Source of the DNA: an uncultured Ignavibacteria bacterium
Lineage (GTDB): Bacteria > Bacteroidota > Ignavibacteria > Tepidaquicellales > OLB5
Direction of reading: 5' to 3'
Assembly: GCA_937873695.1 (NCBI GenBank)
Contig: CALMYL010000020.1
Span: 62,001 to 126,000 of the forward strand
DNA length: 64,000 nt
The first letter of the stretch is position 1, and each line of letters starts with the position of its first letter. A program made the position numbers and the translations under genes. The notes under the pieces are model-generated. The model searched no databases and was not told where the DNA came from. It saw only the letters and a list, made by a program, of their open reading frames with translations. Shown here in pieces: positions 57,661 through 60,888 of this stretch.

Positions 57661-59465
57661 TATTTGTATCTGCTCCTCTGATTAAAATCGTTTAGCATTA
57701 TACCATCCCTGTTGATCTCTTCTTTAAACTTATTATTTACTGGCCTGCCATTCAATGAAAACTCCAGCACGGTACCCATTCCATTCATTGCAGGTACTAC
57801 ACTCGTAAATTCCCGTGGCAGATCATATATGCTTCCCGTGTTCCTGAATGTATTCATCATTGCAGCCATCTTCTGCATGTTCTGGCTTCCGCCGCCTGAG
57901 CCGCTGCCTCTGCGCGTTGAACCGAACAGCCCGCCGAAGATACTACCCACTATCCCAACCACGCTGCCTATAGGTCCCAGAAAGCTCAGCAAGCCGCCTC
58001 CTGCCCCTCCGCCGCCTAACAACGACCCGATCTGCATCGCTATCTGTAACATCGCCTGCATCACCTGGAAAGGATTATCAAGCGGCTGGTTCAGTATGTT
58101 GTGTATATTCTGCGCCACCTGCACCATGCTCTCAAAACTTACACTTGTCGGCTCTTCTGCCGGCGTGCCCTGTTTGCTGCCGCTGAACGGCTTGCCTGCG
58201 CGCACAAAAGCAGGATCATCCGGAAGCTCTTTTAACTTATTACTCAGTGCGTCAAGATCGGCTATCTTGCCGCTTATATCCATTTCCTTTATGCCGGTTA
58301 CCAGATACTCCATACGCTTTTCCATCTCATCTATCTGAGCCTTTAACTCCTCGGCTAAACCAAGATAGCCCTTGCCCATCGCTTCACCATACTCAACGGT
58401 AAGCTCATTTATTCGCTTCTGTGTTTCCTCAACTTCATTCAGCTTCTGCTTTTCTTCCTCTATCCGGCTTACTTTTGGATTGCCTGTCGGTGATTTTGTA
58501 TCCTTTAACCCGTAACTGTTTTGCGTTTCAACATATTTTTTTGTGGCGTCAATAGTCTGGTTTATCAGCGATAGATTTTCGCCGGTTACTTCTTTTCTTC
58601 TTTCCTCAAGCTTGTTTAATACAATGTTCGCTTCATATATAGTCGCAGTGCCGTTCTTAACCTTTTTGTAATATTCATCAAAACCCTGTGATGAATTTTC
58701 ATACTTCTTCTTTATATCTTCACCAAGGGTCGGACTGTTTATATCCAGTCCTTTTTCAATATTTCTGAACTGTCCCATCTGGTACCGCAAATGGTCCATC
58801 AGCTTCGATGTATCCGTAATTGCGCCCTGCAGTCTTTCAAATTCAGCAACCCCTTCATCAAAACTTATCTCACCCGATAAATACCTGAACGCCCTGCCAA
58901 GCGCGGGAAGCTGATCCTTAAACTTTGTTACAAATACATACATTCCCGCAAGCGCAGCGGTTACCGCGCCTATAACAGGCAATGCAGCCGCAAATCCCGC
59001 AGGCAGCGCATTCTTCAATGCCGAAAGCGCAGGTATTATGAACAGTATAGATGAACCCGCATTAGCCGCGCTTTCAGCCACACTTCCCAAATTCATTTCT
59101 GTTTTACCAAGCTCTGTGCTTAATGCCCTGAAATCACTGATCGCAGATCTTATGCCATGCCCTATTACAGTAAGGTCACGCGCCAGGTTAAGATTCTTCT
59201 GCCTGAATAAACTGGATTTTTTTTCTGTCTTTTCGTACTCTGTACCAAGCCTGTTCAGATCGCCGATAAGCCGCTGCTGTTCCTTCTGCATTACCTTATA
59301 AGCAAGCGTATTCTTCTTGCCCGCATCCTCGTAAAGCCTCATCTTTGCAGTAAGCTTATCGTATTCAGTGCTTATTTGCTGTACTTTCTGCACTGTCTCA
59401 TCACCGCCGCTTTTCAGCATTCCGGTTTCTATTATAGCCGATACCTTTAATTCACCTATGTTCAT
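57660..59465 (-). CDS. Phage tail tape-measure-like protein
   Basis: 601 residues. Residues 20-115 are coiled coil (TVQKVQQISTEYDKLTAKMR, QKEQQRLIGDLNRLGTEYE), followed by a hydrophobic pair (SILFIIPALSALKNALPAGF, VIGAVTAALAGMYVFVTKF), more coiled coil to about residue 410, and a Gly-rich membrane-like segment (LLGGGGAGGGLLSFLGPIGS). This is the tape-measure design: the length sets the tail length and the hydrophobic parts cross the host membrane. By the usual 0.15 nm per residue a tail of about 90 nm is suggested. Its ATG lies 4 bp into the end of the -1-frame chaperone product. Confidence 0.75.
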   Translation of the reverse strand: MNIGELKVSAIIETGMLKSGGDETVQKVQQISTEYDKLTAKMRLYEDAGKKNTLAYKVMQKEQQRLIGDLNRLGTEYEKTEKKSSLFRQKNLNLARDLTVIGHGIRSAISDFRALSTELGKTEMNLGSVAESAANAGSSILFIIPALSALKNALPAGFAAALPVIGAVTAALAGMYVFVTKFKDQLPALGRAFRYLSGEISFDEGVAEFERLQGAITDTSKLMDHLRYQMGQFRNIEKGLDINSPTLGEDIKKKYENSSQGFDEYYKKVKNGTATIYEANIVLNKLEERRKEVTGENLSLINQTIDATKKYVETQNSYGLKDTKSPTGNPKVSRIEEEKQKLNEVEETQKRINELTVEYGEAMGKGYLGLAEELKAQIDEMEKRMEYLVTGIKEMDISGKIADLDALSNKLKELPDDPAFVRAGKPFSGSKQGTPAEEPTSVSFESMVQVAQNIHNILNQPLDNPFQVMQAMLQIAMQIGSLLGGGGAGGGLLSFLGPIGSVVGIVGSIFGGLFGSTRRGSGSGGGSQNMQKMAAMMNTFRNTGSIYDLPREFTSVVPAMNGMGTVLEFSLNGRPVNNKFKEEINRDGIMLNDFNQRSRYK

Positions 59466-59722
59466 GTCTTGGGCTTACTTTTACTGTATCTGTACCAGTC
59501 TATGTAATTATTTTTGTATCTCAAAAAATTCAGCTTGCATAATTCACTGTATTTCATTTCCAGAAGCTTTTCGTTATCAAAACCGTCCTTAACCAGCGCA
59601 TACCTTATTTCCTCTATCACGCTGTTTATCCAGCCGGGCATTGTTGAGCGGCTTTCAAAGTCAAATGCCGCTGTGCTCAGTGTTCCTTCTTCAAATCCGT
59701 ATCCGTATTCTTCGCTTCCGTT
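59462..59722 (-). CDS. Frameshift extension of the tail assembly chaperone (T part of G/GT-like pair)
   Basis: A frame open for 86 codons after the slip site, ending TGA at 59464-59462, which overlaps the tape-measure ATG. It encodes NGSEEYGYGFEEGTLSTAAF, then WINSVIEEIRYALVKDGF and closes with YSKSKPKT; acidic then helical, as expected for T extensions that bind the tape measure. In its own frame there is no ATG until 59641, so an independent start would lose a third. It is expected only as a fusion to the upstream chaperone: 160 codons from ATG 60201 to the slip, plus 86. Confidence 0.7.
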   Translation of the reverse strand, partial: NGSEEYGYGFEEGTLSTAAFDFESRSTMPGWINSVIEEIRYALVKDGFDNEKLLEMKYSELCKLNFLRYKNNYIDWYRYSKSKPKT

Positions 59723-60201
59723 TTTCCCGTTGAAGCCACTGCGATCTTTAAGATTTCGAAGGCCAGTCTCATCTTGGGATTTAAAGTAAAAAAATCATTA
59801 AGGATGACCTCAACTTCATCCTGCTTTAACTCCATTAATTGCGCGTCTCTTATCGGCGCACTTTCATCCGCTGCCCTTAATATTATCATCTCAAGCTTGC
59901 GCAAACCTTTTTTCCTGAACAGCGCGCCGCTCACACTCTCAAGCGTAAGCTCAGTACCGGGCTCTATTTCTATCTCATGCAGCAATTCAGCTAGTTCTTC
60001 CGTCTGCGCCGTGCTCAGCTGTTCCTGCCAGCACCTTAGCCCGTTGTGGAATGAATACCTTTTCCGCTCAAACTTCCCGGCAAAGTTCTTTTCTTTGCCC
60101 TTCATCGTGCGGCCGCCCTTTTTACTGAACATCCTTATTACAACAAATGCCGCAAGTATCACAAGCGGCAGACTCAACATCAGTATATAATTATTTTCCA
60201 T
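59677..60201 (-). CDS. Tail assembly chaperone-like protein (G part) with a -1 slip site
   Basis: 174 residues from ATG 60201, which has AGGGAG six bases upstream; ORFs starting at 60234 ignore this. An N-terminal hydrophobic segment (about residues 3-22) is unusual for a chaperone; translation from a later ATG (60105) would drop it and leave a 142-residue soluble protein. The middle is acidic and helical (EELAELLHEIEIEPGTELTL, DEVEVILNDFFTLNP). Near the end, codons ACG GGA AAA ACG carry the G GGA AAA heptamer. After the heptamer the zero frame encodes only 14 more residues. Position between tail tube and tape measure is the G/GT place. Confidence 0.7.
   Translation of the reverse strand: MENNYILMLSLPLVILAAFVVIRMFSKKGGRTMKGKEKNFAGKFERKRYSFHNGLRCWQEQLSTAQTEELAELLHEIEIEPGTELTLESVSGALFRKKGLRKLEMIILRAADESAPIRDAQLMELKQDEVEVILNDFFTLNPKMRLAFEILKIAVASTGKTEAKNTDTDLKKEH
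59722..59728 (-). promoter_or_regulatory. Candidate -1 ribosomal frameshift heptamer G GGA AAA
   Basis: On the minus strand, 59728 to 59722 read GGGAAAA with zero-frame phasing ACG|GGA|AAA|ACG. This is X XXY YYZ with X=G, Y=A, Z=A, next to lambda's GGGAAAG. Slipping by one base re-reads the last A and enters the 86-codon frame ending at 59462. Confidence 0.75.
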
Positions 60202-60209
60202 TTTTTTCT

Positions 60210-60234
60210 CCCTGAGCGCAGCGAAGGGTCTCAT
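60210..60234. repeat. REP-like element CCTGAGCGCAGCGAAGG
   Basis: Lies just upstream of the chaperone start; its right end on the minus strand contributes to that gene's ribosome site. Related to 9701-9726 and 62253-62274. Confidence 0.5.
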
Positions 60235-60357
60235 TCGGTGCGCGTTTATTTCTTTTCCTATAAATTAGCGGGAGGTGCTCATTCTCCCGCTATCCCTGGA
60301 GGTACAGCTTGCGTGTATTTCGGTAGGCACGCGTGAAGCTCATTCATCACCCGCTTA

Positions 60358-60888
60358 CTATGCAGGCTCTTTTTCAGCCAGCAGGTAATAAGGTGAGTTA
60401 CTCGTCTGCGCGTCCGTAACCGCCTTTGTCGGGAAGTCATCCGGCATTACTTCGCTGGGCGCTACATTTACATTCTCGCTCTGCGGCGCGCAGCTTCCCT
60501 TGATGACAATAGTCTGCAACTGACCCGGACCCATCGGTATCTCTTTACTTCCCGTTATCATCAGTTCAGGTATGTAAATATCCATATCCGCGCCGCCGAT
60601 ATTTTTGCCGTTCATGTAAAATGCTTTTCTCAGCTCACCCTTTAAGGAGTTGATCTGCGAAACATTCTCGTTGGTAAGCTGCGCAATTGTGACCTCAAAA
60701 TCACACTCGCCCGGTCCCAAACCCTTGAAGCTTGTGCCATCGCCAAATGTAGCCTTAACGGTCTCTTCCGCTTCTGTCAGCTTTCCGCCCAGCACCTTGC
60801 CAAAAAAATGTACGGTATCATCATCCTTGGTGATACCGAACGCATTGCCTGAGTTGAATCTTAAAAGCTCGTTATCGTGATTAAACAT
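60358..60888 (-). CDS. Major tail tube protein candidate
   Basis: 176 residues, beta-rich, no leader. GITKDDDTVHFFGKVLGGKL, then GLGPGECDFEVTIAQL and PMGPGQLQTIVIKGSC suggest a single beta-sandwich. Size and position (two genes upstream of the tape measure, right before the chaperone pair) fit a tail tube subunit. The ATG has GGAGGGAG upstream. No sheath gene separates it from the chaperones, which argues for a non-contractile tail. Confidence 0.6.
   Translation of the reverse strand: MFNHDNELLRFNSGNAFGITKDDDTVHFFGKVLGGKLTEAEETVKATFGDGTSFKGLGPGECDFEVTIAQLTNENVSQINSLKGELRKAFYMNGKNIGGADMDIYIPELMITGSKEIPMGPGQLQTIVIKGSCAPQSENVNVAPSEVMPDDFPTKAVTDAQTSNSPYYLLAEKEPA

Follow-up and report, generated by a model that had tools for sequence, protein, structure and literature searches.

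The E. coli dnaX gene carries the heptamer A_AAA_AAG together with an upstream SD-like element and a downstream hairpin, and this arrangement gives rise to a shorter product. The pairing of an upstream SD-like element with a slippery heptamer is a general rule (PMC4066793). In phage lambda, gpG and gpGT bind the tape measure protein, and the T portion binds the major tail protein (PMC5009743). Known G/GT pairs have little sequence in common (PMC5009743), and therefore missing homology does not exclude a chaperone assignment.

There is one gene of comparable layout in the window, by which we mean the whole 64,000-nucleotide stretch of DNA analysed here, taken from an uncultured Ignavibacteria bacterium. 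Sequence comparison makes it very probable that ribosomes use two frames of this gene and so produce two proteins, one shorter than the other, in the manner of phage lambda. The two products are likely to be a tail assembly chaperone pair of the G/GT type, with a -1 slip at the heptamer T_TTT_TTT.

Genomic setting

The window takes in the left portion of a prophage, and the assembly has a size of 3.78 Mb. Downstream on the contig are genes for a MuA-type transposase (PHROG 310) and a MuB-type ATPase (PHROG 296), together with genes for a terminase, a portal, a minor head protein, a head protease and a head structural protein. These genes mark the phage as transposable and Mu-like, and its tail genes follow a lambda-like order. 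The Mu-like prophage occupies about 116-152 kb of the contig (G000:C20), or the window from about 54.2 kb on. Its tail, protease and head structural genes are on the minus strand and its transposition, terminase and portal genes are on the plus strand, an order of strands and genes that seems unusual for Mu-like phages.

Two overlapping reading frames before the tape measure gene

G adjoins the tape measure gene through an ATGA overlap with the PHROG 167 match (Table 1), which is the location expected of a G/GT chaperone. The ORF just upstream of G gave no match in a PHROG search. The initial annotation had placed a frameshift within the codons ACG GGA AAA ACG at 59730-59719 on the minus strand, where GGGAAAA (59728-59722) lies in the frame of the ORF running from 60234 or 60201 to 59677. 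Its description of the layout was accurate, in that the -1 frame past this heptamer continues for 86 codons to the TGA at 59464-59462, the unshifted frame stops 14 codons past it at 59677, and the T stop overlaps the tape measure ATG (59465) as ATGA. However, the -1 frame is really open from 59794 for 110 codons. It opens exactly at T_TTT_TTT, right after a TGA of the same frame. This heptamer, located 66 nt upstream of G_GGA_AAA, and T_TTA_AAT are two further in-phase heptamers of the gene, both of which had been missed.

There are 134 in-phase XXXYYYZ heptamers in window ORFs of at least 100 aa. The gene at 59 kb is the sole plausible frameshift candidate, and the remaining few matches looked spurious. 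GGGAAAA is found 12 times in the window versus 13.7 expected, and thus it is not enriched.

Table 1. Coordinates in the window of the features discussed in the text
Feature	Position	Strand	Remarks
G, 0-frame product, 174 aa	59677..60201	-	Putative tail assembly chaperone with homologues; ORF open from ATG 60234 too
T, -1 frame entered by predicted shift	59462..59794	-	108 aa past FF, ending at TGA
GT fusion	60201 start	-	246 aa, predicted
T_TTT_TTT, putative slip heptamer (GAT TTT TTT)	59788..59794	-	In phase; conserved in 12/12 homologues
T_TTA_AAT, second in-phase heptamer	59779..59785	-	Kept in 7/12; possibly accessory
G_GGA_AAA, heptamer of the initial annotation	59722..59728	-	In phase; window only (1/12)
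GAGG, SD-like, candidate stimulator	59808..59811	-	13 nt upstream of T_TTT_TTT
Predicted N-terminal membrane helix of G, ILMLSLPLVILAAFVVIRM	60130..60186	-	Kyte-Doolittle 2.55; basic residues behind
Tape measure gene, 601 aa	57660..59465	-	PHROG 167 tape measure, E 1.2e-5; ATGA overlap with T stop
176-aa ORF just upstream of G	60358..60888	-	Candidate major tail protein, by position only

Conservation of the probable slip site among homologues

The searches gave 11 homologues of G, 10 in other genomes and one in a viral contig, with identities down to about 20% (19-41% to the window in the 11-member alignment). A protein search of 99 relatives yielded seven full homologues (L008-L014), and a profile search added L028 from the same genus and L029 from another family of the class. 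L030 is the single representative from scans of viral contigs, and a wider profile added L054, from another family of the class, with an E value of 4e-4. Counts out of 12 refer to the window and these 11 homologues. A tape-measure-like ORF is located 3' of G/T in at least 11 of the 12 copies, L014 being uncertain.

The codons GAT TTT TTT occur in phase in all 12 copies, L054 included, and thus T_TTT_TTT is invariant. Past this site, every copy has a -1 frame that continues for 94-119 codons without a stop. The same frame is shut within 33 codons in unrelated viral contigs that match the 20-base pattern GATTTTTTTNNNTTAAATCC by chance. Both Phe codons could also be TTC, and therefore nothing dictates the use of TTT. 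Given local codon usage, TTT at all 24 Phe positions has a naive probability of 10^-5.5, or of 10^-3.6 for eight divergent members, both figures being made too strong by relatedness.

G_GGA_AAA is absent from all 11 relatives, in which the tail module is intact and T_TTT_TTT is kept instead. In favour of slippage at G_GGA_AAA, the heptamer is canonical, in phase and close to GGGAAAG of lambda, but it is present in only 1 of the 12 copies and is very probably not the slip site. The homologues nevertheless lend strong support to a lambda G/GT-type -1 frameshift before the tape measure gene, as had been proposed, and the second frame is conserved in all of them; it is the site that was wrongly assigned. 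A 246-residue fusion starting at 60201 is still predicted, but its residues 139-160 differ from the earlier version. The corrected site therefore alters 22 residues of the predicted fusion and also the design of any test.

Perhaps ribosomes slip at T_TTA_AAT instead, or at both U-rich heptamers in tandem. T_TTA_AAT lies in phase 9 nt downstream of T_TTT_TTT in 7 of the 12 copies, and TTAAATCC is fixed in 9 of the 12. However, T_TTA_AAT has been lost from L011, L014, L028, L029 and L054, all of which keep T_TTT_TTT, and TTAAATCC encodes LNP in one frame and FKS in the other, which accounts for its fixation. We consider a role for this heptamer as the slip site to be very unlikely.

Selection on the -1 frame

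The -1 frame between the two candidate sites was compared with a null in which synonymous codons were redrawn while the 0-frame proteins were kept fixed (2000 redraws, 11 copies). Similarity in the -1 frame is 1.54 versus a null of -0.51 for codons 3-22, and 1.04 versus -0.88 for codons 8-22, which sit wholly upstream of G_GGA_AAA in the window. For both ranges, 0 of 2000 redraws are as alike. The frame is open in 11 of the 11 copies tested, compared with redraw means of 2.7 (codons 3-22) and 4.2 (codons 8-22). The 0 frame is less conserved over codons 8-22 (0.31).

Among six divergent members, the -1 frame gives z of 6.6 for codons 8-22. Their -1-frame values overall are z 4.0 to 8.6 versus z -1.0 to 1.6 for controls, namely the +1 frame of the same region and, immediately 5' of the heptamer, both the -1 and the +1 frame. 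When close relatives are included the +1 control rises to as much as 3.5, which indicates some inflation by descent. A frame that is open by chance is ruled out by the homologues and by the synonymous-shuffle null, and the latter result places the shift at or before the T run.

The conserved -1 residues between the two sites, FF[YF]FKS...R[SC]G[FY], start at T_TTT_TTT itself. The peptides SQDETGLR and SGFNGK are encoded in the -1 frame upstream of G_GGA_AAA. Conservation of residues in this region indicates that translation is in the -1 frame before G_GGA_AAA is reached. A slip at G_GGA_AAA would leave these upstream codons untranslated, yet they are conserved as protein, and we regard slippage there as highly improbable.

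There is also little opportunity for T to be expressed as a separate gene through an internal start or reinitiation. In 11 of the 12 copies the -1 frame contains no ATG, GTG or TTG codon between the point where it opens and a position at least 155 nt past the site, and thus only a shift would give access to it. L029 does have TTG and GTG codons in the -1 frame 61-79 nt upstream, and the window has a CTG after GAAGGAACA close to the stop of G. However, with conserved -1 residues that begin at the heptamer and with start codons so scarce, independent initiation of T is extremely unlikely. A conserved shifted-frame extension that lacks its own start, as expected of a lambda-type G/GT pair, is present.

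Proposed mechanism and candidate stimulators

In the mechanism that we propose, most ribosomes would read G to 59677 and produce the 174-aa protein. In a minority of ribosomes, both Phe tRNAs would re-pair one base back on U_UUU_UUU (59794-59788), perhaps with help from the GAGG located 13 nt upstream. The slipped ribosomes would then go on through T to yield the 246-aa GT protein, ...NDFF-YFKSQDETGLRNLKDRSGF..., for which the predicted junction peptide is ...QDEVEVILNDFFYFK. By analogy with lambda, and on the basis of synteny and arrangement, the G part would coat the tape measure protein and the T part would recruit the major tail protein. In E. coli, U_UUU_UUU is reported to be much less slip-prone than A_AAA_AAG (PMC5009743), and therefore the efficiency here may be low or host-dependent.

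The SD-like sequence upstream of the heptamer is GAGG in the window and GGAGG in L009, L010, L014 and L030. It is absent from L011, L013, L028 and L054. The 16S end of the host, GGATCACCTCCTT, includes CCTCC. Predicted pairing of the region to the 16S tail has a mean of -5.0 kcal/mol, whereas synonymous redraws average -2.4 and none of 400 is as strong. It reaches -6 kcal/mol or better in 6 of the 12 copies, compared with 2.3% of the remaining windows of these genes. The region was picked after inspection of the sequences and is close to the 6-17 nt range used elsewhere (PMC4066793). The GAGG element is a likely candidate stimulator. A downstream hairpin was not found in the window (z 0.45 and -0.24). 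A hairpin or pseudoknot on that side was rejected as a stimulator, and the mean z across homologues is weak at about -1.

The T run might instead cause RNA polymerase to add one U, or to drop two, on T7 or T8, which would produce the same GT protein from an altered mRNA. The run is T7 in eight copies and T8 in four, and slippage is known to occur on runs of A or T. In some bacteria fewer than nine bases may be enough (PMC1088944), and genes of E. coli contain TTTTTTT less often than expected, for which slippage is perhaps the reason (PMC4066793). However, nine is the usual threshold and the length at which selection is evident in many genomes (PMC1088944), and eight of the copies have exactly seven. 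In addition, the run is always in the phase of a -1 heptamer, and the SD-like element points to slippage by the ribosome. We therefore consider transcriptional slippage unlikely. The T7 site permits a direct test of ribosomal versus transcriptional slippage.

A predicted membrane helix in one lineage

In the window, L008, L009 and L030, the N-terminus of G is a strongly hydrophobic stretch of 19 residues (Kyte-Doolittle 2.5-2.7), and basic residues are located behind the predicted helix. The helix is absent from the other eight copies. An internal ATG between the helix and the chaperone part is found at 60105 in the window and in none of L008, L009 and L030. One tentative possibility, which we find somewhat doubtful, is that G and hence GT of this lineage carry a real N-terminal membrane anchor, which would tether the coating of the tape measure and the start of tail formation to the host membrane at its inner face. 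We know of no membrane helix in lambda G, and there is no description of a membrane tether for G/GT chaperones in the literature searched. The predicted helix raises the question of where tail assembly is located.

Sequences adjoining G

A short repeat lies upstream of G at about 60210-60262 on the minus strand, within CACCGAATGAGACCCTTCGCTGCGCTCAGG, and has five other sites in the genome with 85-100% identity, including G000:C20:128355 and C18:40186. Directly upstream of the G homologue of L029 (genome G398) there is a reverse-transcriptase-like ORF (348-1496, read by eye), which might be an element for diversity generation or defence within the tail module. In L011, L012 and L014, ORFs of 89-214 aa with similar starts are located between a tail-protein-like ORF and G. 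Those of L011 and L012 are in tandem and begin NKP..S..QVG, and some of the ORFs in these three loci have pentapeptide-like repeats.

Comparison with known systems

As stated in the initial annotation, there is little similarity to known chaperones, and comparisons with Pfam, PHROG, lambda and HK97 gave nothing significant. There is no convincing match in Pfam or PHROG for 11 G members or in PHROG for 11 T members. A tblastn search of 50,697 phage records returned no match to G, to the G of L054 or to the tape measure protein, sequences of solved chains (PDB) gave nothing significant, and a phrog_9 search of the bacterium's own genome gave nothing. The literature searched, outside which the main subscription papers lie, holds no precedent for T_TTT_TTT in phage tail genes, and we claim no first.

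The locus resembles the dnaX cassette in its combination of an upstream SD-like element with a slippery heptamer. It differs in that frameshifting is predicted to lengthen the product, and the window yielded no hairpin.

It is also like gp13/gp14 of HK97 (AF069529, PDB 2ob9), a chaperone with a -1 frameshift extension before the tape measure gene. The two are not significantly similar in sequence (hhalign E 0.71). The structure models are of low confidence (pLDDT 58 and 61, from alignments of two sequences each, with the homologues from the genome search left out); 2ob9 is the top Foldseek match of the G model, albeit without significance (E 0.52; VIA Z 2.2, 72 residues, rmsd 5.2), and the T model gave only weak Z values of up to 3.5 to unrelated helical proteins.

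In lambda the slip is at GGGAAAG, 8 codons ahead of the G stop, whereas the putative site here is T_TTT_TTT some 38 codons before it, and there is no sequence similarity to lambda (hhalign E 0.28 for G and 0.53 for T). We file the locus as a new sequence family within the known G/GT mechanism. It would extend the lambda-type frameshift to a chaperone family that is unmatched in the libraries used, found in prophages of an under-sampled bacterial group, and whose slip site is invariant across divergent copies. As in phage lambda (J02459), the order is major tail protein (here a candidate), G, the -1 extension T and tape measure; the -1 heptamer is close to where G ends, and the T stop overlaps or abuts the tape measure start.
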